From Hyphomicrobiales bacterium (GTDB lineage Bacteria; Pseudomonadota; Alphaproteobacteria; Rhizobiales; HXMU1428-3), in assembly GCA_021775425.1 (NCBI GenBank), contig JAJFHX010000022.1, positions 62,001-126,000 on the forward strand: DNA of 64,000 bases, in the 5' to 3' direction. Position 1 is the first letter of the stretch; every line of letters begins with the position of its first letter. Both the position numbers and the translations under genes were made by a program. Positions 12,509-32,571 of the stretch are shown here, one piece after another. Under the pieces are notes generated by a model. It did no database searches, was not told the origin of the DNA, and saw nothing but the letters and a program-made list of their open reading frames with translations.

Positions 12509-13459
12509 CTATTTTTTCTTACGTGCGTCTTTTGCTTTTTTGAGGTCACGAATGACATCATAGTCAGCTGAAGTCATGGCAACAAATCTGTTAGACTTCA
12601 CATTAGCAAGAAATCCCTTGGCAGTTGGATCTTTATCCAGACCAAGAAATGTTTCCCTGACCTTCGCCTTGATGTCATCACATAATGGTTGACGATAGAC
12701 AAAAGGGTCTTGTGGAATGGCAGGTGATGACCAGATCACGTTAAAATCTTCCATTTTAACATCACCCTTTGCAACAACATTGTCAAATCTGTGCGAAGCC
12801 ACAAATGCCACATCAACTTTGCCCTGATGGACAGCAACAGTTGAAAGTTCATGAGAGCCTGTGTAAACGGATTTTTTGAAATATTTATCAAAATCCATAC
12901 CTATAACTTTCGCGAACACAACCCTTGGCACCAGATTGCCTGATGTGCTGCCCGGGTCAGTCAGGCCAACAATTTTGCCTTTAATGTCCTTAATTTCTTT
13001 AAAGCCGGAACCTTTCTTGGAAATCAAAACCCCTTTATATCCTGGGCCTTCTTCCTGCAGGTGTCCGGGTTTTTTTGCGTATGTGGCAAACACTTCAATG
13101 TTCTTGTCTTTACTATTGGCAATCACATATGAGTACGGCCCAAGAACCGCAACATCAACAAATTTGGAAAGCATCCCTTCCACAACAGAAGCATAAGAAG
13201 TCGGCATGAAAAATTCTATTTTTTTGCCCGTCAGTTTCGCCATTCTGTCAGTAATGGGTTTATAAAGCTGTAACTCCGCAACGCTTTCTTCAGTTGGAAT
13301 AATGGCAAAGGTCAGGCTGTCGGGGTTCTCGCATTTTCCAGCAGCCATAGCATTTGTTGAAGTGATCAGGCCCAGCCCCATTGTTAAGGCAACGCCCAGG
13401 CTAAGTTTCGACAGCTTGGCCGAAAACAGGTTTCTAATTCCGTTTTGTAGTTTCTTCAT
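12509..13459 (-). CDS. phnD: Phosphonate ABC transporter substrate-binding protein
   Basis: A 316-residue periplasmic protein with a signal peptide (about 1-40, long and basic n-region, ...STNAMAAGKC). Family features include LTFAIIPTEES, FMPTSYASVVEGM, VDVAVLGPYSYV and LTDPGSTSGNLVPR, the last forming part of the phosphonate-binding loop. The ATG at 13459 has GGAAGGAG at 7 bases; the in-frame TTG further out overlaps that site. It is placed directly behind the alcohol dehydrogenase gene. The ligand could be 2-hydroxyethylphosphonate, 2-aminoethylphosphonate or phosphonoacetate; the sequence does not decide. Confidence 0.94.
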   Translation of the reverse strand: MKKLQNGIRNLFSAKLSKLSLGVALTMGLGLITSTNAMAAGKCENPDSLTFAIIPTEESVAELQLYKPITDRMAKLTGKKIEFFMPTSYASVVEGMLSKFVDVAVLGPYSYVIANSKDKNIEVFATYAKKPGHLQEEGPGYKGVLISKKGSGFKEIKDIKGKIVGLTDPGSTSGNLVPRVVFAKVIGMDFDKYFKKSVYTGSHELSTVAVHQGKVDVAFVASHRFDNVVAKGDVKMEDFNVIWSSPAIPQDPFVYRQPLCDDIKAKVRETFLGLDKDPTAKGFLANVKSNRFVAMTSADYDVIRDLKKAKDARKKK

Positions 13460-13530
13460 AAAGTAACTCCTTCCCAAAAGTATCTACTAATATTGAACCA
13501 CTTCTTGCGTTGGTTTTTAAAATTGATTGT

Positions 13531-14697: not shown

Positions 14698-14776
14698 TTG
14701 TTGATTGACTAACAGTACTCACACCGCTTACCATCTGACAAATGCATAAAAAGAATGGTTTCTATTGGTTAAATAA

Positions 14777-15658
14777 ATGATTTATTCACATCTAAGATCT
14801 TTCCACGCCGTCGCATCAAAAGGCGGCTTCACCGCTGCAGCCAATGCAATCAACGTTGGTCAACCAACAATCTCCACCCAGATCAAGGCACTCGAAGATA
14901 CCTATGGCGTCAACTTGTTTCACCGTCAGGGCCGCGTTGTACAACTGACAGATTGTGGTGAAGCGCTGTTTAAAATCAGCCAGAGAATATTCAGCCTTGA
15001 AGACGAGGCCAAAGAACTGTTGAGCAGTTACAATGGTTTATTGGCGGGTAATCTAAAGCTCGGTGCGGTCGGGCCATATCATGCAACACCAATGCTGGCA
15101 CGGTTCCACAAGCTCTACCCGCAAATAAAACTCTCCGTGAATATGGGGAACTCAATGAAGATGGTTGAGCGTGTTCTTGATTATACGGTTGATGTCGCAG
15201 TGCTGGCCCATGTGGCGGAAAACCCGATGATTTATGCAGTCCCTTTCAGCCGCCACCCTGTGGCCGTTTTTGTCAGCAAAGCCCACCCTTTCGCAAAACG
15301 AAAAAAGATAAAAATTAAAGAACTTGAGGGAGAAAAATTTATCCTCAGGGAAAAAGGGTCCACCACCAGACTTGCTTTTGAAAGCGCCCTTGAAGAAAAA
15401 GCAGTGACGATAGACCCCGTGCTTGAAATGGGTAGCCGTGAAGCCGTGTGGTCGGCAGTTGAACAGGGCTTGGGTATGAGCTTTGTGTCTGACATTGAAT
15501 TTTCACCACACCCCAATCTGCAACTGATCGAAATTACGGATGCCGAAATTTTTACCACAGCCCATGTGGCCTGCCTCTATGAGCGCCGAGAAGCAAAAAT
15601 CATCAAAACATTTTTCGAAATTGCCGAAACCATCAAGCAGGAAAATAACAAAGCTTAA
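14777..15658 (+). CDS. LysR-family regulator of the phosphonate locus
   Basis: A 293-residue LysR protein. The HTH occupies about residues 3-62 (LRSFHAVASKGGFTAAANAI, QPTISTQIKALE). The effector domain follows (about 88-290). It is divergent from the alcohol dehydrogenase-phnDCEE operon (79 bases between starts) and upstream of phnA-phnY, the normal place for an activator of both units. LysR regulators are commonly linked to PhnA/PhnY genes. The inducer, probably a phosphonate intermediate, is inferred. Confidence 0.92.
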   Translation: MIYSHLRSFHAVASKGGFTAAANAINVGQPTISTQIKALEDTYGVNLFHRQGRVVQLTDCGEALFKISQRIFSLEDEAKELLSSYNGLLAGNLKLGAVGPYHATPMLARFHKLYPQIKLSVNMGNSMKMVERVLDYTVDVAVLAHVAENPMIYAVPFSRHPVAVFVSKAHPFAKRKKIKIKELEGEKFILREKGSTTRLAFESALEEKAVTIDPVLEMGSREAVWSAVEQGLGMSFVSDIEFSPHPNLQLIEITDAEIFTTAHVACLYERREAKIIKTFFEIAETIKQENNKA

Positions 15659-15918
15659 TGACGTCACCCTGAAAAATAAGACCCCATGGTTCGCGGCAAA
15701 CATTTCCATTCATTTCATCAATAAAAACGATACAATATATGAATTTGATCAATATTTGTATTTGCCTGAGGATAGCGCCAAAGAGTTATGCCCTCTTAAT
15801 AATGGCGAGGGGATCGCTCAAAATCAAAAAAACCGCAGCGCCACAGGCAATGAATTGCGATATGTCATCAAGCGGTTTTGTCACTGCGCCTCTATGTTGA
15901 CTATTCAAAGGAACAAAA

Positions 15919-17163
15919 ATGACAAGCCTCACCAATGTGAATGTGAATGATCGAATTTATCCAACTCCGAAAACAGCAGCAATTGCCATTTGTCTTGATG
16001 GCTGCGAGCCGGCCTATCTGGATGAAGCAATCGCGTCCGGTTTAATGCCTAATCTGGAGCGCATAAGAAAAACAGGAACCGTGGCATTTGCTCAAAGCGT
16101 CATTCCCTCTTTCACAAATCCGAATAACCTGTCTATAGCAACAGGCCGCCCACCTGCGGTGCATGGAATTTGCGGCAATTATCTGTTCGACCCCGAAACA
16201 GGTGAGGAGGTCATGATGAATGATGTCCGCTTTTTAAGAGCGCCAACTATTTTTAGTAAATTCCATGAATCAGGGGCGAAAGTGGCTGTTGTGACAGCAA
16301 AAGACAAACTGCGCGCTCTACTTGGTGCCGGGCTGACATTTGATGACGAAAGAGCGATCTGCTTCTCGGCTGAACGCTCAGATATTACCACAAAAGCTGA
16401 ACACGGTATTGACAATGCAAGTCAATGGCTTGGTATGGAAGTGCCGGAAGTTTATTCCGCTGAATTATCAGAATTCGTCTTTGCCGCCGGCGTGAAACTG
16501 TTAAAAGAATGGCAGCCAGATGTGATGTATCTGACAACAACAGATTACGTCCAGCATAAATACGCGCCGGGCGTTAAAGAGGCCAACGATTTCTACGAAA
16601 TGTTTGACGTATATCTCGGCCAGCTGGATGAACTGGGAGCAGCCATCGTCATCACAGGTGACCATGGCATGAAACCAAAGCACCATGCAGATGGCTCACC
16701 AAACGTGATTTATATTCAGGATACTCTCGATAGTTGGCTCGGCGAAGCCGCCGCAAGAGTGATCCTTCCGATCACAGACCCATATGTAGTTCACCATGGT
16801 GCGCTGGGTTCATTCGCAACCGTATATTTGCCAAATGATGCTGATAGAGCTGACATCATCACCCGCCTGAAACAAATCGACGGCATAGAAGTTGTATTGG
16901 GCCGGGAAGAGGCATGTGAAAAGTTTGGCCTGCCAGCTGATCGCATTGGCGATGTCGTCCTGACATCAGGTGAAAATGTAACCATCGGCACATCAGAACA
17001 CCGTCACGACCTGAAAGCATTAAACGAACCTTTAAGATCCCATGGCGGTCTTCATGAGCAAACGGTACCCTTCATCATCAATCGCCAGCTAAATATTGAA
17101 AGCGCAAATGAGCTACGTAATTTTGATGCTTTCTATTATGCAACGAAAGCAGCGGCACTTTAA
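15919..17163 (+). CDS. phnA: Phosphonoacetate hydrolase
   Basis: A 414-residue member of the alkaline phosphatase superfamily. Metal ligand Asp27 lies in ICLDGCEPAYL; Thr66 in SFTNPNNLS is at the nucleophile position known for PhnA; later metal residues lie in TTDYVQHKYAP and TGDHGMKPKHH, and HGGLHEQTVPF near the end. The enzyme splits phosphonoacetate into acetate and phosphate with two zinc ions. The alternative family (nucleotide pyrophosphatase/phosphodiesterase) is less likely given the phnY neighbour 50 bases downstream. AAAGGAAC precedes the ATG. Confidence 0.93.
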   Translation: MTSLTNVNVNDRIYPTPKTAAIAICLDGCEPAYLDEAIASGLMPNLERIRKTGTVAFAQSVIPSFTNPNNLSIATGRPPAVHGICGNYLFDPETGEEVMMNDVRFLRAPTIFSKFHESGAKVAVVTAKDKLRALLGAGLTFDDERAICFSAERSDITTKAEHGIDNASQWLGMEVPEVYSAELSEFVFAAGVKLLKEWQPDVMYLTTTDYVQHKYAPGVKEANDFYEMFDVYLGQLDELGAAIVITGDHGMKPKHHADGSPNVIYIQDTLDSWLGEAAARVILPITDPYVVHHGALGSFATVYLPNDADRADIITRLKQIDGIEVVLGREEACEKFGLPADRIGDVVLTSGENVTIGTSEHRHDLKALNEPLRSHGGLHEQTVPFIINRQLNIESANELRNFDAFYYATKAAAL

Positions 17164-17213
17164 GTGAACGGCAAACAGATAAAGAACGCAGATAAAAAAC
17201 ACAGGTAAAAACA

Positions 17214-18665
17214 ATGAATAAAAATCCAATTCCGATGCGAAATGAGCAAATGCGTATAGCGGGACGCAAAGTAAGTGCTGATGCTGTAATTGATGTTCAC
17301 TACCCTTACACAAATGAGGTAATAGGCACAGTGCCGGCGGGGCAAGCCGAACACGCACGCGAAGCATTTGAAATTGCTGCAAATTACACGCCAACATTAA
17401 CCCGTTATGAGCGCCAGCAAATTCTTCTCAACACCGCAAAAATAATTAATGACCGCAAACAGGAACTCGCTCCCATCATCACCGCAGAACTAGGCATTTC
17501 TTTAAATGACAGCCTTTATGAATGTGGCCGCGCTTATGATGTTTATACCCTCGCAGCACAGATGTGCATTATAGATGATGGTGAAATTTTCTCCTGTGAT
17601 CTGACCCCTCACGGCAAAAACAGAAAAATTTTCACAACGAGAGAACCTTTAAGATCAATTTCAGCCATCACCCCCTTTAATCATCCGTTGAATATGGTGT
17701 CTCACAAAATTGCGCCGGCCATCGCGACCAACAATTGCATTGTTGTCAAACCAACAGAGCTTACCCCGTTGACAGCCATCTGGCTGGCTGATGTCATTTA
17801 TGAAGCAGGCCTGCCACCTGAGATGCTCAGTGTAGTCACAGGCTGGCCACTGGATATCGGCGAAGAAATGATCACAAATCCGAATATCGATCTTGTCACC
17901 TTCACGGGCGGTGTCCCGGTTGGTAAAATGATTGCAGCCAAAGCTGTATATAAACGCCAGGTGCTTGAGCTTGGCGGAAATGATCCTCTCATCATCTGCA
18001 ATGATTTATCAGATGAGGACTTGGCGAAAGCCGCAGATCTGGCCGTGGCCGGGGCTACCAAAAATTCAGGCCAGCGGTGCACCGCTGTCAAACGCATACT
18101 CTGCCAGCAGGATGTAGCCGATAAATTTTCCGAACTGGTGCTGGAGCGGGCTAAACTGATTAAGTTCGGCGACCCGATGGACCCGGAAACGGATCTGGGA
18201 ACAGTCGTTAATGAAAAAGCAGCTGCGCTTTTTGAAGAACGTGTCATGAAGGCAGAAGCCGAAGGTGCAAAGATACTTTATAACCCAGGCCGCAAGGGAG
18301 CATTGCTGCCACCAATTGTGGTTGATCATGTAAATCATGAAAGCGAGCTGGTGATGGAAGAAACCTTTGGTCCGGTCATCCCCATCATAAGGGTGTCAAA
18401 TGATGATGATGAAGTCATCAGGCTTTCAAATTCAACCGCCTTCGGTCTTTCATCGGGTGTTTGTACCAATGATTACCACCGCATGCAGAAATATATCAAA
18501 GGTCTGATCGTCGGCACAGTGAACATCTGGGAAGTCCCCGGATACAGGATCGAAATGTCACCGTTCGGTGGCATTAAAGATAGCGGCAATGGCTATAAAG
18601 AAGGTGTCATTGAAGCCATGAAAAGCTTCACCAATGTAAAAACCTTTTCACTCCCCTGGAGTTAG
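17214..18665 (+). CDS. phnY: Phosphonoacetaldehyde dehydrogenase
   Basis: A 483-residue aldehyde dehydrogenase. The general base Glu252 is in LELGGNDP and the catalytic cysteine Cys289 in [11 protein letters not shown]; the NAD-binding glycine motif is FTGGVPVG (about 230-237). It oxidises phosphonoacetaldehyde to phosphonoacetate, which PhnA then hydrolyses. The RCTAVKR form and the phnA neighbour separate it from succinate-semialdehyde or lactaldehyde dehydrogenases, which are the closest alternatives. Same strand and 50 bases after phnA, so one operon is likely. Confidence 0.93.
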
Positions 18666-18683
18666 GCCAGACACACAGATTTC

Positions 18684-18706
18684 CTGGCCAGTCTTAAATT
18701 GGCCAG
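18684..18706 (+). terminator. Hairpin after phnY
   Basis: CTGGCCA (18684-18690) pairs with TGGCCAG (18700-18706) over a 9-base loop, 19 bases past the phnY stop. An A/T-rich run without a clean T tract follows. It may be a weak terminator or an mRNA 3' stabiliser. Confidence 0.4.
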
Positions 18707-18876
18707 AAAATATTTAAAGCTTAAAGGCTCAGAACCAGCACATTTACAAGAATAAAGGAAAATCAAATCACACCTGAAAACGCAGTGAGCCATAAATACA
18801 AAAACATCTCACCTGTCTTATATCGCAACCTGAACAGTCTTTAAGAAGATAAATAATTGTTAGGGAGGATCCAACC

Positions 18877-20520
18877 TTGTCTGCAACAGCAGTGCTATTT
18901 CACCTCATAGGAGCAGTCTGTCTGCTGTTATGGGGGCTTCGAATGGTGCAAACAGGTATCAGCAGGGGGTATGGTGTTCAGTTAAGACAGGTCATTAAGA
19001 AAAATACCGGCAATCGCTTCAGCGCTTTCGGCGCAGGCCTCGCGGTTACCATTCTGGTGCAATCCAGCACAGCCACAGCGCTCATAACATCTTCCTTTGC
19101 GCGCAATGGCTTCATCACACTCACTGCCGCCATCGCTGTGATGTTGGGGGCAGATGTCGGCACAACTCTGGTGGCTCAGGTGCTCTCATTAGATTTAAGC
19201 ATTCTGCCCTTTTTGCTAATGATCACCGGCTTCATTGTTTATAAAGTTTCAGATGTCCTGCATATCCGCCAGCTCGGCCGCGTCGCCATCGGCATCAGTC
19301 TGATGCTGTTTGCTCTCAGCTTTATCAGACAATCCGTCGAACCTTTAAAACAATCCGAAATCCTGGCCAGCCTTTTCGCCTCGCTGGAAACAGAACCAAT
19401 CCTTGCTATACTGGTCGCAGCACTTCTAGCCTGGATCATGCATTCAAGTCTCGCAGCCATCCTGCTGATCTCTTCACTGGTAACGGCAGGCACCATCACT
19501 TTAAATCTCGGTATGGTATTATTATTAGGCGCCAACATTGGCGGCACTATCCCGGCCGTCATCGCCACCCTCGGCAGTGGCATATTAGCGCGAAGAATTA
19601 CAATCGGAAATTGCGCTATGAAAATATTTGGCGTGCTCTGTTGCCTTCCGTTTATAGATCAACTGACATCCCTCCTCTCCGGGTTGAGCGCTTCAGAGCA
19701 ACGCATAATCATTGATTTTCACACACTATTTAATTTGTGTCTGGGGCTGTTGTTTTTGCCCCTGGTCCCGCTGGTTAAAAATCTGCTGGAACGTTTTTTG
19801 GTCAGTGACGAAGAAGAGGAAAAAGCAGTCCAGACAAAATTTCTTGATCAGTCAATCATCAATACACCCGCCCTTGCTCTTAATAATGCCTCACGCGAAG
19901 TGCTGGAAATGATCCGTCATGTAGAAGAGATGCTAGAAGGCGTGATGGTTGTGCTGGTTGATAATGACTTAGATAAGATCGAAAAACTAAGTGATATCGA
20001 CGACACCGTTGATGAACTTTATGAGCAGATTAAATTCTATGTCATCAGTGTTTCCAGAGAAGAGATGAGTTCAAAAGAATCCAACCGCGCTGCTGAAATA
20101 TTATTATTCACCACCAATCTCGAACATATCGGCGATATTGTTGAAAACATCCTCACCATTGCTCGCAAAAGAGCGATTGAACACCTGGCATTTTCAGAGC
20201 AGGGGCTTGCTGAAATTGAAACGCTTCATAAAGCCGTGACAGCGAACCTTGATCTGGCAACAAGTGTCTTTATGTCAGGTGAAATAAAAATCGCCAGAGA
20301 GATGCTGAAGCAAAAAATAGAAATAAACAAACTGCAGGGCACACTCACGCAAAACCATCTTGACCGTTTACGCAAAGGCCAGCCAGACAGCATTGCAACA
20401 AGCGCTCTTCATCTTGATATCTTGCGGGATCTGCGCCGTATTCACTCGCACATCACAGCCGTTGCCTATCCGGTATTGGATAATGCCGGTGAATTGCGCA
20501 AAACAAGACTGAAAAAATAA
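18877..20520 (+). CDS. Na/Pi cotransporter family protein with PhoU-like C-terminus
   Basis: A 547-residue protein. The N-terminal 310 residues carry about eight to ten membrane segments with two QSST-type repeats (VQSSTATALITSSF near 60 and the second half HSSLAAILLISSL near 185), the NptA/YjbB signature. The C-terminal 230 residues are helical and PhoU-like. Start is TTG with GGGAGG at 8 bases. NptA-type proteins import phosphate with sodium; E. coli YjbB lowers cell phosphate by export. Here the phosphate released by PhnA may be the cargo. It lies 211 bases after phnY and may have its own promoter. Confidence 0.9.
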   Translation: MSATAVLFHLIGAVCLLLWGLRMVQTGISRGYGVQLRQVIKKNTGNRFSAFGAGLAVTILVQSSTATALITSSFARNGFITLTAAIAVMLGADVGTTLVAQVLSLDLSILPFLLMITGFIVYKVSDVLHIRQLGRVAIGISLMLFALSFIRQSVEPLKQSEILASLFASLETEPILAILVAALLAWIMHSSLAAILLISSLVTAGTITLNLGMVLLLGANIGGTIPAVIATLGSGILARRITIGNCAMKIFGVLCCLPFIDQLTSLLSGLSASEQRIIIDFHTLFNLCLGLLFLPLVPLVKNLLERFLVSDEEEEKAVQTKFLDQSIINTPALALNNASREVLEMIRHVEEMLEGVMVVLVDNDLDKIEKLSDIDDTVDELYEQIKFYVISVSREEMSSKESNRAAEILLFTTNLEHIGDIVENILTIARKRAIEHLAFSEQGLAEIETLHKAVTANLDLATSVFMSGEIKIAREMLKQKIEINKLQGTLTQNHLDRLRKGQPDSIATSALHLDILRDLRRIHSHITAVAYPVLDNAGELRKTRLKK

Positions 20521-21199: not shown

Positions 21200-22093
21200 A
21201 TGGCCGCCAGTGATTTACAAACAAAAACAAAAGCCCCCCGCAAAAAAAGATCAATACAGGAAATCAGAAATTCAAAAACCTCTGGCGAGAAAATGGTCTA
21301 TGTTTCCGTCCCCGATTATACCTCAGCCCAATGGGTCGAAGACGCCGGTGTTGATGTCGCGGTGGTTGGTGACAGCCTGGCAATGATTGCCCACGGCCAT
21401 CCCAACACGATCCCTGCAACAATGGATATGATGGAACTCCATGCCATGGCGATCAGAAGAGGGGCACCAAACACCTTTGTCCTTGGTTGCATGCCGTATC
21501 AGAGCTATAATTCAGAACAAGCCGCATTGAAAAACGCAACTCGTTTCATGCAAAACGCCGGAACAGACGCCGTCAAACCCCAGGGCGGAAAGTCACAGGC
21601 GCATATTTTAAAGGCTTTGATTGATGCCGGCATCCCCACCGCTTCACACATCGGGTTGACACCCCACACAGTGGCGATGTTTGGCGGGTTTAAAATTCAG
21701 GGTAAAACCGCTGAAACCGCTTTTAAAATTCTTGAGGATGCACTGGCAATACAGGATGCTGGGTGTTTTATGCTTGAGTTTGAAGCGGTGCCGGGCAAAA
21801 TAGCGGCCATAATATCTGACCAGTTGGAGATACCAACCATCGGCATTGGCGCCGGAGTTGGCACAGACGGTCAAATTCTGTTATGTCATGATCTGCTCGG
21901 CCTGTTTTCGGATTTTAAGCCTAAATTTACCAAACGCTATGCAAATTTAAGAGACGCGGCGGTTGAAGGGATCGAAAATTATATTAAAGAAGTAAAATCG
22001 GGTCATTTCCCTGATGATCAATACACCTATGGCGTGAACGATAGTGAATTGGAAAAGTTCTCAACTATGGTAGAAAAACGCAAACAACTCTAA
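21200..22093 (+). CDS. PanB-like protein (ketopantoate hydroxymethyltransferase family) with altered metal ligands
   Basis: A 297-residue TIM-barrel protein clearly of the PanB family: VDVAVVGDSLAM, GIPTASHIGLTPHTV, IPTIGIGAGVGTDGQ and the HDLLGLF ending. Comparing with E. coli PanB, Asp45 is kept (Asp58) and the catalytic Glu181 is kept (Glu195), but Asp84 is replaced by Cys97 (LGCMPYQSY) and Glu114 by Gln128 (VKPQGG). It also has a basic N-terminal extension of about 28 residues. It is followed by a GntR-FCD regulator and a TRAP transporter rather than panC. A catabolic lyase or transferase role is more likely than pantothenate synthesis; the reaction is unknown. Confidence 0.85.
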   Translation: MAASDLQTKTKAPRKKRSIQEIRNSKTSGEKMVYVSVPDYTSAQWVEDAGVDVAVVGDSLAMIAHGHPNTIPATMDMMELHAMAIRRGAPNTFVLGCMPYQSYNSEQAALKNATRFMQNAGTDAVKPQGGKSQAHILKALIDAGIPTASHIGLTPHTVAMFGGFKIQGKTAETAFKILEDALAIQDAGCFMLEFEAVPGKIAAIISDQLEIPTIGIGAGVGTDGQILLCHDLLGLFSDFKPKFTKRYANLRDAAVEGIENYIKEVKSGHFPDDQYTYGVNDSELEKFSTMVEKRKQL

Positions 22094-22100: not shown

Positions 22101-22790
22101 ATGAAAAGCATAACCATGGACAAGGACGCGACATTGGAATTTACACCAAGAACAACCCTGACAGACAAGGCATATACCAGGCTGGAAGAACTCATCGTGA
22201 CATTGCAGATCATGCCAGGTGAAGTTTTGTCTGAAGCAGAGGTTGCAAGCCAGTTAAACATTGGCCGCACCCCCATCCGTGAAGCACTATATCGCCTGTC
22301 ACATGAAGGGCTGGTCCGCATCATGGCAAGGCGCGGCTATCTGGTCACGGAAGTCAACGCACAAAAGCAGTTAAAATTACTGGAAGTGCGCCGCGCACTG
22401 GAGTTGATCCTCTCAAAATCCTGCGCCAAAAAAGGCACACCCGCCGAGCGTGAGGTCTTCCTTCAGATTGCCGAAGGCATGAATGAGGCTGCTAAAAACA
22501 GTGATGAACTGGCATTTATGCGTCTTGATAATCAGTTCAATCTGCATCTGACCAAAGCTTCCCGCAACGAATATGCCAGCCGCGCCATGGAGCTGCTGCA
22601 TGGATTATCCCGTCGATTCTGGTTTATGCATTTTAAGGAGGTTGGTGACCTCCCGCTTTGTGCCCGCCTTCACGCAGATCAGGCCAGAGCCATCTCAGAA
22701 GGTGATGAAGAAAAAGCGGTCAAAGCAACCAATGCTCTGATTGACTATACTGAAAATTTCACCATTCAAACTATTAATCCAAATAGTTAG
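22101..22790 (+). CDS. GntR-family regulator, FadR/FCD subfamily
   Basis: A 229-residue protein: winged HTH in about residues 15-85 (ELIVTLQIMPGEVLSEAEVA, IGRTPIREALYRLSHEGLV) followed by an all-helical FCD ligand domain (about 95-220) with the metal-binding pattern D...H (DNQFNLHL) and later His in HADQARAI. FCD regulators typically bind organic acids and repress their own catabolic genes. It starts 7 bases after the panB-like stop (an ATG at 22116 is also possible), so it is co-transcribed and probably controls this and the TRAP operon. Confidence 0.92.
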   Translation: MKSITMDKDATLEFTPRTTLTDKAYTRLEELIVTLQIMPGEVLSEAEVASQLNIGRTPIREALYRLSHEGLVRIMARRGYLVTEVNAQKQLKLLEVRRALELILSKSCAKKGTPAEREVFLQIAEGMNEAAKNSDELAFMRLDNQFNLHLTKASRNEYASRAMELLHGLSRRFWFMHFKEVGDLPLCARLHADQARAISEGDEEKAVKATNALIDYTENFTIQTINPNS

Positions 22791-23181: not shown

Positions 23182-24243
23182 ATGAACCATATAACAACTG
23201 TTAAGTCATTTAGCTGCGGGGCCGTGCTTGCTCTGTCTATGCTGGCTGGCAACATAGCATCTGCTGCCGAACATAACTGGAAAATGGCAACCAGTTGGGG
23301 TGGTGGTCCATTAATGGAAATTGGCGCCAAAGCATTTGCAACACGCGTGAATGAACTGACAGACGGCCGTGTTGAAATTAAAGTCTTCCCAAGCGGCACC
23401 TTAAGCAAAGGGCTTGAAGTTCGCTCAGCCGTTGCCAAAAATGTCGCTCAGGTCGGTCACACATGGATGGGCTATGACTGGGGTAAAGACAAAACTGTTG
23501 TGTTGCTGGGTGGGTTTGCTGGCAGCATGGATTCAGAGCGCATGCTCCACTGGATTTATGAAGGCGGCGGGTTAAAACTCTGGCGCGATTTTAATGAAGA
23601 TAAATTCGGTCTGGTTTCTTTTCCTTGCTTCACAAGAACAGCCGAAGCCTTTCTCCACTCACGCAAGCCCATCAAATCGCTTGATGATTTAAAAGGTTTA
23701 AAATTCAGAACCGCAGGCGCTTGGCTTGAAATCTCAAAAAGTCTGGGTGCAGCACCCGTGACCATGCCCGGCGGTGAGGTTTACACCTCACTTGAACGCG
23801 GCGCGATTGATGCAACAGAGTGGGGCACACTTTATGAAAACAAAACAACAGGTTTCCATAAAATCGCGAAATATGTGATCATTCCCGGCATTCACCAGCC
23901 TTCAGCACCGTTTGAAATGGTGATCAACAAAGATGCATTCGCAAAACTTTCCGACGCAGATAAAAAAGCTGTTGAACTGGCAGCCAAGCTCGTTACCCTT
24001 GAAAGCTGGATGCGTGTTGGCCAGGAAGATGCCAAAGCACTGCAATTCTATAAAGAGCAGGGCAATGAAATTATTGAACTGGATGCGGCCGTGCAGCGTC
24101 AGGCCAAAGATCTTGCGATTGAGTGGGCTCAAAAAGAAGCCAAACAAAATCCATGGTTCGATAAAATTCTGAAAAGCCAGCTTGAGTTTGAAAAACTCTG
24201 GCAGGACGCTTCAAAATACCGGAATGTGAAATATAACGACTAG
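23182..24243 (+). CDS. dctP: TRAP transporter solute-binding protein (DctP family)
   Basis: A 353-residue periplasmic protein with a signal peptide (about 1-28, ...NIASAAEHNW). The family layout is clear: WKMATSWGGGPLMEIG, VNELTDGRVEIKVFPSG, LKGLKFRTAGAWLEI with the ligand-binding arginine Arg176 in KFRTAG, and ERGAIDATEW. The MATSW...ATEW form resembles the TakP/alpha-keto acid-binding branch, suggesting a 2-oxo or 2-hydroxy acid ligand, which is an inference. GGGAGGA precedes the ATG. It leads the dctPQM-phyH operon. Confidence 0.93.
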   Translation: MNHITTVKSFSCGAVLALSMLAGNIASAAEHNWKMATSWGGGPLMEIGAKAFATRVNELTDGRVEIKVFPSGTLSKGLEVRSAVAKNVAQVGHTWMGYDWGKDKTVVLLGGFAGSMDSERMLHWIYEGGGLKLWRDFNEDKFGLVSFPCFTRTAEAFLHSRKPIKSLDDLKGLKFRTAGAWLEISKSLGAAPVTMPGGEVYTSLERGAIDATEWGTLYENKTTGFHKIAKYVIIPGIHQPSAPFEMVINKDAFAKLSDADKKAVELAAKLVTLESWMRVGQEDAKALQFYKEQGNEIIELDAAVQRQAKDLAIEWAQKEAKQNPWFDKILKSQLEFEKLWQDASKYRNVKYND

Positions 24244-24338: not shown

Positions 24339-24872
24339 ATGCCGAAATGGATCCTCTTTATCGAACGTATCTCTGGTATAAGCGGCGTGATCATCGCCTG
24401 GCTGGTTTTACCTCTCATCATCGCAACCGTTTATGAAGTGTTCGCCAGATATGTGCTGAACGCGCCAACCATCTGGTCCTATGAGCTGGGCTATATGGCC
24501 ATGGGCGCTCACTTCATCATCGGCGCGGCCTATGCCCTTCGCGAAAAAGCGCACATTAGAATTGATGTGCTTTATAGCCAGTTTCCAACCAGAACACGCG
24601 CCATGCTGGATGTGCTTGGTTACCTCCTTTTGTTTTTCCCTGTCATCATCTGGTTGCAGTTCGGCTTGTGGGAATATTGGGTCGAGGCATATCAAAGTGG
24701 TGAAGGATCCGGCCAGTCGGCATGGAACCCACCAATCTGGCCGTTCAGGCTGTGTTTCTTTACAGGGTTCTTCCTGTTGTTATTGCAAGGTTTCGCCCAG
24801 TTTTCAAAATCAGTCATGGCCGTTGCAGGCGCTGACTGGGCCATCAAAGAATTAGAAAAACAGGGAGAATAA
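24339..24872 (+). CDS. dctQ: TRAP transporter small permease (DctQ family)
   Basis: A 177-residue membrane protein with four hydrophobic segments (about 8-40, 45-70, 88-108, 125-152). The EVFARYVLNAPTIWSYELG run and the GAAYALREKAHIRIDVLYS segment are the DctQ signature. It stabilises the large subunit in sodium-driven uptake. Its stop is 2 bases before the dctM start, so the pair is translated together. Confidence 0.92.
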   Translation: MPKWILFIERISGISGVIIAWLVLPLIIATVYEVFARYVLNAPTIWSYELGYMAMGAHFIIGAAYALREKAHIRIDVLYSQFPTRTRAMLDVLGYLLLFFPVIIWLQFGLWEYWVEAYQSGEGSGQSAWNPPIWPFRLCFFTGFFLLLLQGFAQFSKSVMAVAGADWAIKELEKQGE

Positions 24873-24874: not shown

Positions 24875-26197
24875 ATGGAAGAATACCTCGCCCTGATCAT
24901 GTTCCCGGCGCTTATGTTTGCTTTGTTTCTGGGATTTCACGTTGCGTTTGCGATGATGGGAGTTGCTCTGGTTTTTGGCTATATTACCTTTGGTGATGCT
25001 GTCATTTTCCAGTTCGTTCAGAAAATTGACGAAACAGCATCTAACTTTGTTCTCGCTGCCGTGCCGCTTTTCGTCTTTATGGGTGCCATGCTAGAACGTT
25101 CAGGCATCGCCGAAAAACTGTTCGAAGCCATCCACTTATGGACAAGGCGCTTGCCCGGCGGTCTGGCTATTGGCACAGTTTTAATGTGCGTAGTCTTTGC
25201 TGCTTCCAGCGGCGTCATTGGTGCAACAGAAACGGTTGTCGGCCTGCTCGCAATCCCCGTTATGATGAAATATGCCTATGAGAAAGGTCTGATATCCGGC
25301 ACCATTTGCGCCGGCGGCTCTCTGGGCACCATCATCCCGCCTTCTGTTGTGGTTGTTGTGCTTGGTCCCATAGCAGACGTCTCTGTTGGTGATCTGTTTA
25401 TCGGCATGCTCATACCCGGCCTGTTGCTGGCCAATCTTTACATCGGTTATATTCTGGCCCGATGCGTGCTTAACCCAACCGCAGGTCCACGTATCCCGCC
25501 ATCACCGGATGACCCGACACTGGCTGAAAAAATTAAAGTAACAGCCTTCGCACTCCTGCCACCAATCATTATGATCTTTGCCGTGCTTGGCTCTATCATG
25601 CTTGGACTCGCAGCCCCAACCGAAGCGGCAGCTTTGGGTGCGGCAGGCTCATTGCTGTTGTCGATGATTTACAGAAAATTCAGCATTTCAATTCTAAATG
25701 AGGCTTTATTAAAAACACTTAAAGTCACCTGCATGATCATACTAATCCTGCTGGGCGGCAATATGTTTGCCGGTGTTTTCATTGCCTCAGGCGGTGTGAC
25801 ATTAACAGAAAACATCATCTCAGGTGCGAATTTAACACCCTGGACAACATTGCTGTTATTCCTCACCATAACCTTCATCGCCGGTTTTTTCCTTGATTGG
25901 ATTTCGGTTTTGTTGATCTTCATTCCGGTGTTCATGCCGATCGTCAGAACAATGGGGTTCGAACCGGTCTGGTTCTGTGTCCTGTTCCTGATCATGATTC
26001 AAACCAGCTATCTGACCCCGCCACTGGCGCCGGCAATCTTCTATCTAAGGGGCATTTCCCCTCCGGAAATAACATTAAAGCATATGTATAAAGGTGTTGT
26101 TCCCTTCATCCTGCTACAGATCCTGTGTCTTGCGATTGTCGCCGCCTTCCCGGAACTGGTGCTGTGGTTACCGTCACAAGTATTGGGTTTCAATTAG
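24875..26197 (+). CDS. dctM: TRAP transporter large permease (DctM family)
   Basis: A 440-residue protein with about 12 membrane segments, the standard DctM size. Recognisable parts: FVLAAVPLFVFMGAMLERSG near the start, GGSLGTIIPPSVVVV around residue 145, APTEAAALGAAGSL near 250, and the end with LTPPLAPAIFYLRGI. It forms the transport channel that accepts substrate from DctP. The small and large permeases are separate genes here, unlike the fused TRAP protein at 44.3 kb. Confidence 0.94.
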   Translation: MEEYLALIMFPALMFALFLGFHVAFAMMGVALVFGYITFGDAVIFQFVQKIDETASNFVLAAVPLFVFMGAMLERSGIAEKLFEAIHLWTRRLPGGLAIGTVLMCVVFAASSGVIGATETVVGLLAIPVMMKYAYEKGLISGTICAGGSLGTIIPPSVVVVVLGPIADVSVGDLFIGMLIPGLLLANLYIGYILARCVLNPTAGPRIPPSPDDPTLAEKIKVTAFALLPPIIMIFAVLGSIMLGLAAPTEAAALGAAGSLLLSMIYRKFSISILNEALLKTLKVTCMIILILLGGNMFAGVFIASGGVTLTENIISGANLTPWTTLLLFLTITFIAGFFLDWISVLLIFIPVFMPIVRTMGFEPVWFCVLFLIMIQTSYLTPPLAPAIFYLRGISPPEITLKHMYKGVVPFILLQILCLAIVAAFPELVLWLPSQVLGFN

Positions 26198-26227: not shown

Positions 26228-26260
26228 CCCGAAACCAGATGTCTGACATTTGGTTTCGGG
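26228..26260 (+). promoter_or_regulatory. Long hairpin between dctM and the phyH-type gene
   Basis: CCCGAAACCAGATGTC (26228-26243) and GACATTTGGTTTCGGG (26245-26260) are reverse complements except for one position. It lies 31 bases after dctM and ends 23 bases before the next start, with no T run. It may protect or separate the downstream message, or be a protein-binding palindrome. Confidence 0.6.
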
Positions 26261-26282
26261 GAAGACAAAAGGAGATGGAATT

Positions 26283-27176
26283 ATGAGCCCGGAAGAAGTT
26301 TTATCAATCAGACCCTTGTTGCTGACCAGCCGGCAAAGAGAAGATTATTTCGCCAACGGCTATCTCCTGTTGGAAAATCTAGTCTCCAAAGAAGAGCTTG
26401 AAACATTAAACGCAGTCACAGCCGAGATGGTCGAGCAAAGCCGGGACATTACCAAATCAGATCAGAAATGGGATATCGAACCCGGCCACACCAGAGAAAA
26501 CCCCATGCTGCGCCGCCTTGCCAGCCCAAATGATCATCATGAAGCTTATTGGAACTACGCCTCAAACTCTAAACTAACCGACGCGATAACAGATCTGGTT
26601 GGCCCTGATGTGAAATTCCACCACTCAAAATTAAATTTCAAATGGTCAGGCGGTGGTGAAGAGGTCAAATGGCATCAAGATATTTCCTTCTGGCCGCATA
26701 CAAATTACAGCCCCTTAACAGCAGGCACTTATCTGCAGGATTGCGGCAGTGAGCAAGGACCACTAGGTGTCATTAAAGGCAGTCACCTTGGGCCTCTATA
26801 TAACCAATATGATGAAAACGGCACCTGGACCGGTGCGCTGAATAGTCAGGATTCAGACAGCCTTGATGAAAGCAAAATCGTCTACCTTGAAGGACCTGCC
26901 GGTTCGGTCACGATCCATAATTGCCGCACCGTTCACGGCTCTCCGGCCAATCTTTCGCCAAATCCAAGACCGCTTCTGTTAAATGTCTATTCATCAGCTG
27001 ATGCCTACACCTACACACCAAATCCGCTTTATTCAAAATATGACCAGCACATCGTGCGTGGTAAAAAGGCCCAGTGGGCCGTGCATGATAGCCGCCCATG
27101 TCAGGTGCCGCCAGACTGGTCAGCCGGGTATAGTTCAATCTTTGCTTTGCAGCAGCAAGAACAACAGGCAAAATAA
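26283..27176 (+). CDS. Phytanoyl-CoA dioxygenase (PhyH) family protein
   Basis: A 297-residue Fe(II)/2-oxoglutarate oxygenase. The iron triad is visible: His131 and Asp133 in KWHQDISFWP, and the distal His218 in IHNCRTVHGSP; Arg228 in NPRPLLLN is the likely 2-oxoglutarate contact. The N-terminus (RQREDYFANGYLLLENLVS) is typical. ATG at 26283 with AAAAGGAG at 8 bases is preferred over the in-frame codon at 26250. Family members hydroxylate acyl-CoAs, ectoine or other acids; its place behind a TRAP transporter suggests the imported acid or a product is the substrate. Confidence 0.9.
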   Translation: MSPEEVLSIRPLLLTSRQREDYFANGYLLLENLVSKEELETLNAVTAEMVEQSRDITKSDQKWDIEPGHTRENPMLRRLASPNDHHEAYWNYASNSKLTDAITDLVGPDVKFHHSKLNFKWSGGGEEVKWHQDISFWPHTNYSPLTAGTYLQDCGSEQGPLGVIKGSHLGPLYNQYDENGTWTGALNSQDSDSLDESKIVYLEGPAGSVTIHNCRTVHGSPANLSPNPRPLLLNVYSSADAYTYTPNPLYSKYDQHIVRGKKAQWAVHDSRPCQVPPDWSAGYSSIFALQQQEQQAK

Positions 27177-27318: not shown

Positions 27319-27606
27319 TCAGTCAGCTAAAATATGGTCGACATCATCGCTATTCATTTCCCACTCATTATGGAAATTTGCCACAGCCCGTTTCATAAAT
27401 TTTTCTTGCGCTGAAGCAGCTTTTTCAACGTCATCAAAATGATCGAGTAAAATAGCAAATGCCAGCTGAGAGGGAGCAGGGCCTTCATAACCCCATTCAA
27501 ACCCGTCACTTGAATAACATTTCGCATCAATACGTGGTTCCAGCTCCTCTTCGTTCACCAGCACCACAATCCCGTCAATTGTCCGGTCTCCTCTATATGT
27601 CTTCAT
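27319..27606 (-). CDS. DUF6166-like small protein
   Basis: A 95-residue soluble acidic protein. MKTYRGDRTIDGIVVLVN at the start and FEWGYEGPAPSQLAFAILLDH in the middle match my memory of DUF6166. Function is unknown. The ATG at 27606 has AAAGAG upstream and is preferred over the Lys-rich in-frame extension to 27639, which would overlap the previous gene. It is the last of four genes in a minus-strand run led by the fatty acid hydroxylase gene. Confidence 0.7.
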   Translation of the reverse strand: MKTYRGDRTIDGIVVLVNEEELEPRIDAKCYSSDGFEWGYEGPAPSQLAFAILLDHFDDVEKAASAQEKFMKRAVANFHNEWEMNSDDVDHILAD

Positions 27607-27610
27607 CTCT

Positions 27611-27829
27611 TTAAGCTTTCTCTTGTTTTTGTTCTTCACGCGCTTTTCGGGTGTCAGCTTTGCTTCGCATCACTTCAGGAAAAATCCACAAGCTAAAGAC
27701 GCTAAACGGGCCAAGAAAGGCGAGGGCCCATTGCGGCCCGGTTTGTCCCACATAGCCCATGTAAAACCAGCCACCAAGGGCCACCAGCGCCACGGCAATT
27801 GAGAGCCCGAGTTTGATATGAAATGGCAT
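27611..27829 (-). CDS. Small membrane protein, two segments
   Basis: A 72-residue protein with two hydrophobic segments (about 6-24 and 34-52) and a charged tail rich in Lys, Glu and Arg. No family recognised. GGAGGAGAA lies upstream of the ATG. It sits 4 bases before the DUF6166 start and follows another membrane protein gene, so it is probably in the same operon. Confidence 0.65.
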   Translation of the reverse strand: MPFHIKLGLSIAVALVALGGWFYMGYVGQTGPQWALAFLGPFSVFSLWIFPEVMRSKADTRKAREEQKQEKA

Positions 27830-27892: not shown

Positions 27893-28282
27893 TTAAAATG
27901 ATAATAACCGACCTGAAGCCAGACCAAGCAGAACCAGAGCAATCCCCAGCCCAATCATCATGATCAAAAGACCCGCTTTGCCGTCTCTCCATTTGGATGG
28001 CCAGATATTAAACAGCCCGGGTGCAAACAAAAACGCCAGGCCGCAAACAATAACAACACTCGTCCAGCGCAGCTGAGTAATCCCGAAATGCAGCGCCCCA
28101 GCCAGTAAGCAAAGCAAAAACAGGCAGTTGATGATAAGAAGGCTAAGGCCAACCGGTTTGCAAAACTCCGGCCGTGTTGATAATGGAAAAGCACCGCTAA
28201 GCACATAAAAGCCAAGACTGGTTATAGAGGCAAAGCCGACAAACCAGATAAGCGGTAAAACATTTGGCTCAATCATATCCAT
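27893..28282 (-). CDS. Membrane protein, four segments, unknown function
   Basis: A 129-residue protein that is mostly hydrophobic, with four predicted membrane segments (about 8-28, 43-65, 73-92, 104-125). No catalytic motif is visible. It lies 99 bases after the fatty acid hydroxylase gene on the same strand. The ATG two codons later (28276) is an alternative start. It could assist the neighbouring membrane hydroxylase, but that is only a suggestion from gene order. Confidence 0.65.
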   Translation of the reverse strand: MDMIEPNVLPLIWFVGFASITSLGFYVLSGAFPLSTRPEFCKPVGLSLLIINCLFLLCLLAGALHFGITQLRWTSVVIVCGLAFLFAPGLFNIWPSKWRDGKAGLLIMMIGLGIALVLLGLASGRLLSF

Positions 28283-29519: not shown

Positions 29520-30878
29520 ATGGCCTGGAAAGCTGAAAACATTTATAGCCGTAACCACGGCCTGCCCGTGCTGGCAAAACCTGACATTCTTGTCGCTGGT
29601 GGCGGTGCCGCAGGCGTCGCAGCGGCAACAACCGCGGGCAAACATGGTGCTAAAGTTCTGCTGCTGGAACGATATGGTTTTTGTGGTGGCAATGCAGTAG
29701 CAGGCCTTTCAGGCACGTTATGCGGCATGTATCTGGCGAGTGATAATTACAACAGCCCGCCAGAGCAGGTTGTCTATGGCTTTGCCAACACATTCTTTCA
29801 GGCCATGAAACAATGTGACGGTGTCACTGCGCCGCAGCGATACGGTAAAACCTGGACAGTCACCCACGACCCGCACAAATGGCGGGAAACCGCTGAAGCA
29901 TTGCTGTTATCAGAAGATGTCGACATTCTTTATCATAGCCTCATTGTCGGCACCATCCGCGAGGGAAATGAAATTCTGGGCGTAGTCATCGCAGGCAAAA
30001 GTGGCCTTGCCGCCATAGAAGCCAGCATCATCATTGACGCAACCGGTGACGCAGACATCCTTCATCAGGCAGGGCTAGAATATACTGTAGGCGATAATGG
30101 TTTTGTTCAGAACCCAACCATGATCTTCCGCCTCGGCGGTGTTGATATCAAACGCTTTCTCGCCTATTGGGGGCCGGACACAATATGCTCACCTGAAGTG
30201 AGTGAAATGATCATCAGCGCAAAGGAAACCGGAAAATATAACCTCATCAGATCTAAAATCTGGCTGTTTCCAACGCCGCGCCCAAATGAACTGCTTTGTA
30301 ACGCCACCCGCGTCATGGGCCGTGATGGCCGCGATCTGATCGCCGACCGGACAGAAGACCTCTCAGAAGCCGAAATCAGTGGCCGAATGCAGGTCAGGGA
30401 CTATGCCAGGTTCCTTGCAGATTTTATCCCCGGCTGCGAAACCAGCTTTGTCAACGACACGGGCGTTCAGGCCGGCATTCGTCAGTCACGTAGTGCCCTT
30501 GGTGTTGAGCGACTATCGAACGAAGATGTGATGGCTCGGCGCAAACGAGCTGATGGTATCGCCCGCTCGCCCTGGCCAATAGAACTGCACAGCGGCACAA
30601 AACCCAAACTCGAATGGCTGATCAACGATTTCTATGAAATCCCCTACAACGCTCTTGTTCCCAAAACCGGTGAAAACCTGCTCGTGACCGGAAGGTGCTT
30701 TAGCGCAGAACATGAAGCCCTCGCCTCAGCAAGAGTAACGGCGCAGTGTTTTCAATATGGCCAGGCCGCAGCTTTGGCTGCTGTCACCTCCTTTCAAGAA
30801 CAAACCCCATTACGCGCCATCTCTGGAAATGAAGTCAGAGAATTAATGAACAAAGACGGAGCCAGACTTGATGACTGA
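29520..30878 (+). CDS. FAD-dependent oxidoreductase (FAD_oxidored family)
   Basis: A 452-residue flavoprotein. The N-terminal dinucleotide site is DILVAGGGAAGVAAA (about 22-36) followed by the acidic LLLERYGFCGG; the second FAD segment is IIDATGDADIL (about 175-185) and the C-terminal NLLVTGRCFSAEHEALASAR closes the FAD fold. This matches the FAD-dependent oxidoreductases often found in catabolic clusters, whose substrates are mostly unknown. GGGAG precedes the ATG. It overlaps the dehydratase gene by 8 bases, so the two are translationally coupled. Confidence 0.88.
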   Translation: MAWKAENIYSRNHGLPVLAKPDILVAGGGAAGVAAATTAGKHGAKVLLLERYGFCGGNAVAGLSGTLCGMYLASDNYNSPPEQVVYGFANTFFQAMKQCDGVTAPQRYGKTWTVTHDPHKWRETAEALLLSEDVDILYHSLIVGTIREGNEILGVVIAGKSGLAAIEASIIIDATGDADILHQAGLEYTVGDNGFVQNPTMIFRLGGVDIKRFLAYWGPDTICSPEVSEMIISAKETGKYNLIRSKIWLFPTPRPNELLCNATRVMGRDGRDLIADRTEDLSEAEISGRMQVRDYARFLADFIPGCETSFVNDTGVQAGIRQSRSALGVERLSNEDVMARRKRADGIARSPWPIELHSGTKPKLEWLINDFYEIPYNALVPKTGENLLVTGRCFSAEHEALASARVTAQCFQYGQAAALAAVTSFQEQTPLRAISGNEVRELMNKDGARLDD

Positions 30879-32571
30879 TAATAACAACAATAACCGGCGC
30901 AGCAATTTTGAACCAGGCACCACCAGATGGGCCGTCCAACGCGCTCAGTGGATCGCAATGGGCCTAAAGGAAGAAGATTTTACCAAACCAAAAATTGCCG
31001 TTGTGAACACATCTAGCAAACTTTCCGTCTGCTACCAGCATCTTGATAAATTCGCCAAAATCACCACTGAGGCGATCGAAGCGGCTGGTGCACTTGCCTT
31101 TGAAATCAGAACCGCTGCCTCATCAGATTTTATCACCAGCGCTGGCCGTGAAGGCCGGTATCTGATGCCGACAAGAGATTTGATGTCTTTCGATGTTGAA
31201 GTTCAGGTCGAAGGTGCCGTACTGGATGGTATGATCTTGCTATCCTCTTGTGACAAAACAACCCCCGCCCATCTGATGGCGGCCGCCCGCCAGAACATCC
31301 CTTCCATCATCGTTTCCTGCGGTTATCAACTGGGTGGAAGTTGTGGTAGCAAAATGGTCGATATAGAAACTCTATACAATGCGGTCGGCACCTATAAATC
31401 CGGTGAAATAAACCTCGATCAGCTAACCGAAATGAGCCGTCATGCCATCAAAGGTCCGGGCGTATGTGCCGGTCTTGCAACTGCCAATTCCATGCACGTG
31501 CTGGCTGAAGCGCTGGGCATGTCCTTGCCCGGCAATGCCCCGATCAGAGCTGACTCTGAACGTCTGGTTGAAGTTTGCAAACTTGCAGGTGGTCGCATTG
31601 TTGAAATGGTGAACGAAAACCTCACCCCAAGAGAAATTCTAAACGCAGCCGCATGCAGAAATGCGCTAAGTGTCGCTGTTGCGCTGGGGGCATCTGTCAA
31701 CACAGTCCGTCACCTCACAGCGATTGCCCTTGAAGCCGAGCTGGATTTTGACATCCTGAGCGAACTCGAAGCCATCGCAGATAAAATACCCCTCGTTGCA
31801 GAGGTCCGCCCTAATGGGGAAACCCGCATCGAGCAACTCGAAGAAGCTGGCGGCTGCCGTGCCGTTATGAAAGTGCTGAGCAAACGCCTTGACCTGACAG
31901 CCCGCTCAGTCAGCGGCCAAACGCTGGAAGAAATATTAGATCAAACACCTGCCCCGACATCAGATGTAATCAAAACCCTTGAAAACCCATGTTCGAATGA
32001 TCCGGGCCTTGCCATCATAAAGGGCACGCTAGCCCCGGAAGGCGCGGTCGTTAAAATTGCAGCCATTCCAAAAGACATTAGAGAATTTAAAGGCAAAGCC
32101 CGTGTCTTTGAAAAAGAAGCCGACGCCATAGAGCGCCTGAACAGCAACCATCCGGATTGCCTTAAAAAAGGTGACGTCGCCGTACTGCGTATGATGGGGC
32201 CAAAAGGTGGCCCGGGCACAGTATTCGCTGCCAGCTTCATGGCAGCATTACAAGGCACAAGCCTTGGCCGTGAAGTCGCCGTTGTAACAGATGGTGAGCT
32301 TTCTGGCCTCAATAGCGGCATCACCATTGGCCAGGTCATGCCTGAAGCCGCCGAAGGTGGCCCCTTGGCTTATGTTGAAGATGGCGATCAAATCAGCATT
32401 GATATCAACAAGCGCACCATTGATCTCCTTGTGAGTGAAGAAATAATGAAAGATCGAATGGCCAGCAAACAACTGAACCTGCCGGAAGCTCCAGCAGGCT
32501 GGCTCTCCGTTTACCGCGCCACAGTCGGCCCCTTAAAAAGAGGAGCCGTTGTTGGTGATGGCATTAAATAG
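30871..32571 (+). CDS. IlvD/Edd-family dehydratase
   Basis: A 566-residue protein of normal IlvD length. The three cluster cysteines are present: Cys54 (SVCYQHL), Cys127 (SSCDKTTPAH) and Cys199 (GPGVCAGLATANSM), followed by AEALGMSLPGNAP. CDKTTPA, rather than CDKxxPG, is closer to the sugar-acid dehydratase branch (arabonate, xylonate) than to the biosynthetic dihydroxy-acid dehydratase. It removes water from a 2,3-dihydroxy acid to give a 2-oxo acid. ATG at 30871 lies inside the previous gene's end. The pathway substrate is not known. Confidence 0.9.
   Translation: MTDNNNNNRRSNFEPGTTRWAVQRAQWIAMGLKEEDFTKPKIAVVNTSSKLSVCYQHLDKFAKITTEAIEAAGALAFEIRTAASSDFITSAGREGRYLMPTRDLMSFDVEVQVEGAVLDGMILLSSCDKTTPAHLMAAARQNIPSIIVSCGYQLGGSCGSKMVDIETLYNAVGTYKSGEINLDQLTEMSRHAIKGPGVCAGLATANSMHVLAEALGMSLPGNAPIRADSERLVEVCKLAGGRIVEMVNENLTPREILNAAACRNALSVAVALGASVNTVRHLTAIALEAELDFDILSELEAIADKIPLVAEVRPNGETRIEQLEEAGGCRAVMKVLSKRLDLTARSVSGQTLEEILDQTPAPTSDVIKTLENPCSNDPGLAIIKGTLAPEGAVVKIAAIPKDIREFKGKARVFEKEADAIERLNSNHPDCLKKGDVAVLRMMGPKGGPGTVFAASFMAALQGTSLGREVAVVTDGELSGLNSGITIGQVMPEAAEGGPLAYVEDGDQISIDINKRTIDLLVSEEIMKDRMASKQLNLPEAPAGWLSVYRATVGPLKRGAVVGDGIK

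Follow-up and report, generated by a model that had tools for sequence, protein, structure and literature searches.

What does an enzyme of the PanB family do when two of the three acidic residues that hold its metal are missing and when its gene stands among genes for regulation and uptake? The question is posed by a gene in a 64,000-nucleotide stretch of DNA from a Hyphomicrobiales bacterium, here called the window (Table 1). E. coli PanB binds Mg2+ through Asp45, Asp84 and Glu114. The 297-residue product of the window gene matches PF02548 with 317.7 bits and passes the cut-offs of both PRK00311 and TIGR00222, the NCBIfam panB equivalog (281.7 bits, where 207.55 suffice). Alignment with E. 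coli PanB, in the 1m3u row as well as in multiple alignments, places Cys97 at Asp84 and Gln128 at Glu114, precisely as a sequence-only reading of this DNA had claimed, and the same reading was right that the equivalents of Asp45 and Glu181 are kept; the full list of retained residues is D58 (D45), S59 (S46), K126 (K112), H150 (H136) and E195 (E181). That reading missed two further and equally fixed changes, Gln142 to His156 and Val179 to Glu193, as well as the common clade and the wider gene set described below. Glu193 shares a strand with the catalytic Glu195, which comes two residues later, so that Glu193 probably faces the barrel.

Table 1. The PanB-like gene of the window and the genes that follow it
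Feature	Position	Strand	Basis or remark
PanB-like protein, Cys97/Gln128 type, 297 aa	21200..22093	+	ORF list, family matches, alignments, fold match
GntR/FCD transcriptional regulator	22101..22790	+	7 bases past PanB-like gene; family at 75/81 loci
TRAP solute receptor DctP	23182..24243	+	best solved match TakP (2hzk, 2-oxo acids)
TRAP small permease DctQ	24339..24872	+	
TRAP large permease DctM	24875..26197	+	
PhyH-type dioxygenase	26250..27176	+	ORF as listed; true start probably an internal ATG
DUF6166 protein	27319..27639	-	recurrent neighbour
Small hydrophobic protein ("mem45")	27893..28282	-	8/81 loci; hydrophobic by eye
Fatty acid hydroxylase / sterol desaturase superfamily, PF04116	28382..29197	-	most recurrent enzyme neighbour
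FAD-dependent oxidoreductase, PF12831	29520..30878	+	at 7/80 other loci
IlvD/EDD-type dehydratase	30868..32571	+	ORF overlaps FAD gene; 0/80 other loci at E 1e-15

The structure prediction that had been proposed as a check yields the PanB fold, the comparison being made at the level of the fold. In searches with the AlphaFold2 model (mean pLDDT 82.7, pTM 0.83; residue 156 falls in a low-confidence stretch), six PanB entries come out on top at Z 27.0-33.9, with 1m3u at Z 32.8 over 246 residues, and the next family follows only from Z 16.9 down. Among these next matches are structures of methylisocitrate lyase, PEP mutase and oxaloacetate decarboxylase; the PEP mutase/isocitrate lyase superfamily scores Z 15-17, which is the range of other barrels such as tryptophan synthase (15.7).

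Could the unusual residues be a peculiarity of a single gene? One scan of genome contigs returned 179 relatives, and the best 80 of these, at 74-82% identity and with record titles from alpha-, beta- and gammaproteobacteria, were kept. All 80 carry both Cys and Gln along with the other five residues, so the pattern is more than chance: in the window protein and in each of the 80, the acidic metal-site set consists of the retained Asp45 with Cys at 84 and Gln at 114, and the equivalents of Lys112, His136 and Glu181 are present. The residues were counted in 158 aligned rows from which near-identical copies had first been removed. At E. coli positions 84/87/114/142/179 the pattern is C-Y-Q-H-E in 80/80 clade rows and [S/A]-Y-Q-H-E in the three rows of a sister clade (3/3). 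Among 67 canonical rows, which have D84 and E114 by definition so that the other positions alone are independent, F87 is found in 66, Q142 in 66 and V, I or L at 179 in all 67, and neither His at 142 nor Glu at 179 occurs (0/67); the other 8 of the 158 rows are remote. A few rows that are canonical in other respects have F87Y too, so the diagnostic positions are 142 and 179. The clade keeps 38 and loses 13 of the 54 positions at which at least 95% of canonical rows agree. The position of Val214 is Leu in 79 of the 80 clade rows, and replacement of Val214 alters substrate use of E. coli KPHMT (PMC7610986, in excerpt).

A tree built without the five signature columns (a quick method with SH-aLRT support; 61 rows comprising 22 of 80 clade, 3 of 3 sister, 28 of 67 canonical and 8 of 8 remote sequences) joins the Cys/Gln rows in one clade with support 100 and unites them with the Ser/Ala sister clade at 89, below the 95 mark. 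Canonical PanB stands apart with support 95, the 28 canonical rows being on the other side from the window protein; the outgroup is weakly placed on long branches, and the root is accordingly weak. The clade consists of PanB paralogues that are spread among proteobacteria. At one locus, L005, a Cys/Gln and an Ala/Gln PanB-like gene (6664-7545 and 13215-14078) are found together with two PhyH genes, and further PanB paralogues with the ten-position patterns DTDYKEHMME and DVHFKEHSIE are encoded at L211 7532-8398 (G515) and L212 8603-9547 (G505), respectively. On plasmid pMNOD02 of Methylobacterium nodulans (L083 9944-10855), a relative with 75.7% identity, by which it would be of the Cys/Gln type, is annotated panB and is adjoined upstream by a sterol desaturase family gene and a DUF6166 gene.

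Does the cysteine, then, betray a different chemistry? Cysteines serve as acid or base in the branch of the wider superfamily that contains isocitrate lyase, and one could envisage a non-aldol enzyme (a lyase, hydrolase, decarboxylase or tautomerase) that acts on a 2-oxo acid with Cys97 in that capacity. The invariance of Cys in the best 80 of the 179 relatives, and the place of methylisocitrate lyase, PEP mutase and oxaloacetate decarboxylase next after PanB among the structure matches, speak for such an enzyme. However, the sister clade, which shares the Gln, His and Glu of the clade, has Ser or Ala at the Cys97 position in 7/7 genomes, so that Cys97 is not essential to the whole group and its candidacy as the catalytic residue of that group is weakened; moreover, the lyase-type families remain far below PanB (Z no higher than 16.9 versus 27.0-33.9). 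We consider this alternative unlikely.

Another explanation is that the gene is what the family models call it, namely, a working ketopantoate hydroxymethyltransferase, a second panB with an altered metal site that adjoins uptake genes by chance or because this arrangement helps pantothenate supply in certain conditions. The equivalog cut-off passed by the window protein is counter-evidence to a catabolic reading, and the PRK00311 cut-off and the retention of K112, H136, E181 and D45 count on the same side. The pantothenate genes of the bacteria that carry the clade gene bear on this issue. Twenty carriers were compared: the window genome, 12 genomes reached through picked loci (mostly isolates or complete records), and 4 and 3 genomes from two genome samples, with G550 left out as a copy of G504, given the equal length of their contigs. 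Canonical PanB and PanC are also present in 14 of the 20. In the window genome, a second PanB with D84 and E114 is encoded on contig C48 and panC on contig C40, so the sequence-only reading was correct that the PanB-like gene adjoins gntR and TRAP genes and not panC. Three other carriers (two genomes of Stella, and G732, a single contig) yielded neither PanC nor canonical PanB, which shows that the clade gene is kept where the pantothenate pathway was not found. The last three, G087, G723 and G064 (drafts that are 90%, 96% and 68% complete), possess PanC and no other PanB of the canonical type was found in them; these genomes are evidence against a non-pantothenate reading and keep the PanB reading alive. 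The gene content of G651, a 78% complete draft of the sister type from the genus of G087 and G723, is similar: PanC is present, no canonical PanB was found, and a second, partial gene has Glu at 179, as in the Cys/Gln clade.

Taken together, the 14 carriers with canonical PanB and PanC and the three with neither make pantothenate synthesis unlikely as the main job, and we are highly confident that the main job is a different one. Also against a second working panB are the neighbourhoods of 20 canonical panB loci, which have few genes in common with those of the clade, and the absence of the clade gene from all seven other genomes of the window's genus that were searched (0/7); this explanation appears quite improbable to us. 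The non-pantothenate role proposed from the sequence alone is made likely by a clade and neighbours of its own and by the canonical genes of the carriers, and is called into question by the 3 of 20 carriers that have PanC without another PanB.

Within the class, to which both the window genome and G550 belong, the identities of the matches are split. In 142 genomes, 72-100% identity is reached by 5 full-length matches and a single fragment, two further matches are at 45%, and the rest are at 42% or less. A query with the sister clade against 385 genomes of the class (E 1e-70) found members in 14, nine with the Cys type and seven with the Ser/Ala type, two of them having both. Stella, an alphaproteobacterium, is among the carriers. 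In the tree, the window sequence groups with five betaproteobacterial sequences (support 96), and this grouping, along with the absence from the seven genus relatives, suggests that the clade gene has spread by lateral transfer.

If not pantothenate synthesis, then what? The neighbouring genes offer clues. Genes at the 81 loci (the 80 relatives and the window) were called mechanically, as long open reading frames assigned by profiles made from clusters of the same loci, so that spurious antisense frames exist, the profile counts differ slightly from those obtained by clustering, and the window was scanned over all of its 64 kb. By profile, GntR is found at 75 loci, PF04116 at 56, TRAP DctM at 37, DUF6166 at 36, PhyH at 29, LIV-type permeases at 15, a corrinoid fusion protein at 10, separate corrinoid proteins at 10, UroD at 9, the FAD enzyme at 8, a thiol dioxygenase-like cupin at 8, and MFS, methylfolate:corrinoid methyltransferase and PanE-type genes at 7 each. 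For comparison with a control, 36 of the 80 clade loci, each of at least 16,000 bases, were set against 20 canonical panB loci of similar length (one of 11,000 bases), 13 of which come from carrier genomes; the clade loci are related to each other, so Fisher values overstate significance. Four families stand out: GntR (35/36 versus 2/20), PF04116 (31/36 versus 0/20), DUF6166 (20/36 versus 0/20) and TRAP (14/36 versus 0/20). The excess of PhyH is weak (11/36 versus 1/20, Fisher 0.04), and not clearly above the control are a second PhyH type (5/36 versus 1/20), the LIV-type permease (9/36 versus 1/20), the LIV-type ATPase (12/36 versus 5/20), the corrinoid fusion protein (6/36 versus 0/20), other corrinoid-type genes (4-5/36 versus 0/20) and the FAD enzyme (4/36 versus 0/20). 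MFS genes, which were not scored in the control, are present at 6/36 clade loci. As to whether the Cys/Gln sequences form a clade that is always linked to TRAP genes, the 22 sampled rows do form a single clade, but TRAP is present at only 14 of the 36 loci whose flanks are complete. With LIV ATPases counted, 29/36 loci encode one or more of the three types of transporter and 7/36 encode none, and a constant core accompanied by changing transporters would fit the uptake of an external compound. Given that the excess of PhyH is weak, that LIV and corrinoid genes are not clearly above the control and that TRAP reaches only 14/36, a single pathway is not proven by these neighbourhoods.

Several of these genes stand together in a small genome: in G656, a single contig of 1.32 Mb, the PanB-like gene, GntR, TRAP, PhyH, the PF04116 hydroxylase and the FAD enzyme form one cluster, which is followed by a GcvT-type folate-binding FAD enzyme. 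The loci of the sister clade are different. PhyH is next door at L111; homologues of methylfolate:corrinoid methyltransferase are encoded within the same 16 kb at L228 and L229; GntR, the second type of PhyH and TRAP are found at L233; L231 has just an ABC ATPase, and L230 has none of the neighbours; the PF04116 gene was found at none (0/5) of the five loci L228-L231 and L233.

Several candidate components of the gene set were considered and dropped. A strict alternation of PhyH with the corrinoid fusion protein is contradicted by L010 and L064, which carry both, and the thiol dioxygenase-like gene, nearest to the 3-mercaptopropionate dioxygenase type, is present at too few loci (8/81) to be the basis of a reading. 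The IlvD-type dehydratase of the window, perhaps a part of the gene set, was set aside as the source of a 4-hydroxy-2-oxo acid because none of the 80 other loci, many of them with short flanks, has a match. A phosphonate-related function was likewise discarded: ahead of the PanB-like gene, at 13531-20520, the window has a phosphonate-use set in the order Fe-alcohol dehydrogenase PsrA (minus strand), LysR-type regulator (by eye), phosphonoacetate hydrolase, phosphonoacetaldehyde dehydrogenase and Na/Pi cotransporter, of which the hydrolase and the phosphate transporter are matched at 0/80 other loci and the dehydrogenase at one, distantly (E 1e-15). Farther along the window, at 43171-47268, a receptor and a fused permease make up a second TRAP system, which is of the TAXI type; a ChrR-like cupin protein comes after it. 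As for the corrinoid genes, the N-terminal half of the fusion protein of L082 has no family match and looks URO-D-like by eye. A protein of about 230 residues with ferredoxin-like cysteine spacing (by eye) is encoded at L027 3395-4114 and also at L009, L013, L014, L020 and L067; it has no Pfam, NCBIfam or PDB match, appears at several loci with corrinoid methyltransferase genes, and is perhaps a corrinoid reductase.

What might be imported? The solved structure nearest to the window DctP is 2hzk (TakP; E 3.5e-39), then comes 2zzv (E 7.2e-38; the lactate receptor TTHA0766); 7e9y, which bears the name of that receptor, has E 4.1e-31. TakP binds pyruvate through Arg177, Tyr100 and a cation held by Gln156, Glu214, Trp215 and Glu240 (PMC1839085, in the portion available). 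The window receptor has Tyr98, Arg176, Glu213 and Trp214 at the positions of Tyr100, Arg177, Glu214 and Trp215, each of which recurs in 95% or more of 35 receptors from clade loci; unlike TakP, it has Glu155 and Gln239 at Gln156 and Glu240 (by hand count on the alignment), that is, two of the six cation or ligand residues differ. Judging by the match to TakP and by the conserved TakP-type residues, the imported compound is likely to be a small 2-oxo or 2-hydroxy acid; a PanB active site would accept such an acid as well. To this extent, the sequence-only reading made a fair guess in suggesting a 2-oxo acid.

We propose that the clade comprises PanB paralogues that left pantothenate synthesis for a GntR-linked set of uptake and oxidation genes, in which they would cleave or form the C-C bond adjacent to a 2-oxo function. 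We hold this hypothesis with moderate confidence, belief and doubt being about equal. In the window, TRAP would import the small 2-oxo or 2-hydroxy acid; the PhyH, sterol-desaturase-type hydroxylase and FAD enzymes, if they belong to one pathway, would oxidize or demethylate it; the PanB-like enzyme would then make or, more likely, break the C-C bond adjoining the 2-oxo group; and a one-carbon unit would pass to or from folate. The kept residues speak for the same enolate chemistry by the 2-oxo group, and the changed ones for a different handling of the metal, which probably is lost, weakened or held differently, the acids at 84 and 114 being gone and Glu at 179 and His at 142 gained. The uptake genes make cleavage appear likelier than synthesis. 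Folate is the presumed acceptor in view of the corrinoid and folate genes encoded at a minority of the loci, among them corrinoid proteins or methylfolate:corrinoid methyltransferases. The opposite direction deserves consideration: one-carbon units released by a dioxygenase or a corrinoid methyltransferase might be added to the imported 2-oxo acid, in which case the gene set would assimilate and not break down. Neighbours of the demethylation type (PhyH, corrinoid methyltransferases) could supply formaldehyde or folate-bound carbon, and a PanE-type reductase gene follows the PanB-like gene at 6/81 loci (by clustering), but that gene is limited to these few loci, there is no widely recurring biosynthetic partner, and the transporters and the GntR regulator point to the use of an external compound; assimilation appears quite unlikely.

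The hypothesis of a paralogue recruited for cleavage can be taken further, into a version that we deem speculative and, as a whole, improbable. The PanB-derived enzyme would lack the classical Mg2+ site, the charge having shifted from 84 and 114 to the new Glu at 179, accompanied by the new His at 142, and would complete a demethylation route of which no description was found. The route would start from an imported 2-oxo or 2-hydroxy acid that bears an O- or S-methyl group. A dioxygenase, or a corrinoid methyltransferase in certain bacteria, would remove this methyl group; the hydroxymethyl 2-oxo acid so uncovered would be split, and a second one-carbon unit would go to folate. Such a route would be kept even in the 1.3-Mb genome of G656 and would have spread by lateral transfer.

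Among the matches listed in a search of the open-licence literature, we recognized nothing on the Cys/Gln clade or its gene set; PMC10041152 and PMC12542648 name panB with TRAP, and both, in the parts available, concern ordinary panB, whereas a folate side activity of canonical PanB (PMC4814558) and general PanB enzymology (PMC7770189) are covered, each in the excerpt at hand. The gene set could be matched to no described pathway, and the enzyme is a changed form of a known PanB kind. There are practical implications. Vitamin B5 pathways may be over-predicted, given that the NCBI equivalog model calls a protein of the clade PanB and that the plasmid-borne relative of M. nodulans is annotated panB; a PanB would be attributed to both Stella genomes and to G732, in which the protein probably is not used as such. 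If the catabolic reading is true, diverse proteobacteria share an uptake-and-breakdown gene set with a testable substrate. Furthermore, nature offers in this clade a test of how an enol-forming TIM barrel that depends on a metal can manage with two acidic residues of its metal site missing.

How does the proposed enzyme compare with known systems? Removal of a methyl group by hydroxylation followed by retro-aldol cleavage is known from alpha-methylserine hydroxymethyltransferase, a pyridoxal phosphate enzyme unrelated to PanB, and the proposed route would share this logic, the methyl group being oxidized and the resulting CH2OH passed to folate. With PanB itself (EC 2.1.2.11; PF02548; PDB 1m3u), the clade shares the whole fold, Asp45, Ser46, Lys112, His136, Glu181 and 38 of 54 conserved positions; it differs in the replacements Asp84 to Cys, Glu114 to Gln, Phe87 to Tyr, Gln142 to His, Val179 to Glu and Val214 to Leu, in its neighbour genes, and in its presence in 3/20 carriers without PanC. 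E. coli KPHMT can act as a reversible class II aldolase on 2-oxo acids, and the aldol or retro-aldol chemistry proposed here would be the same (PMC10127515 and PMC7610986, both in excerpt). In contrast, KPHMT works with a divalent metal, its retro-aldol reaction being stopped with EDTA (PMC10127515, in the same excerpt), whereas the window clade is without two of the acidic residues of the metal site.
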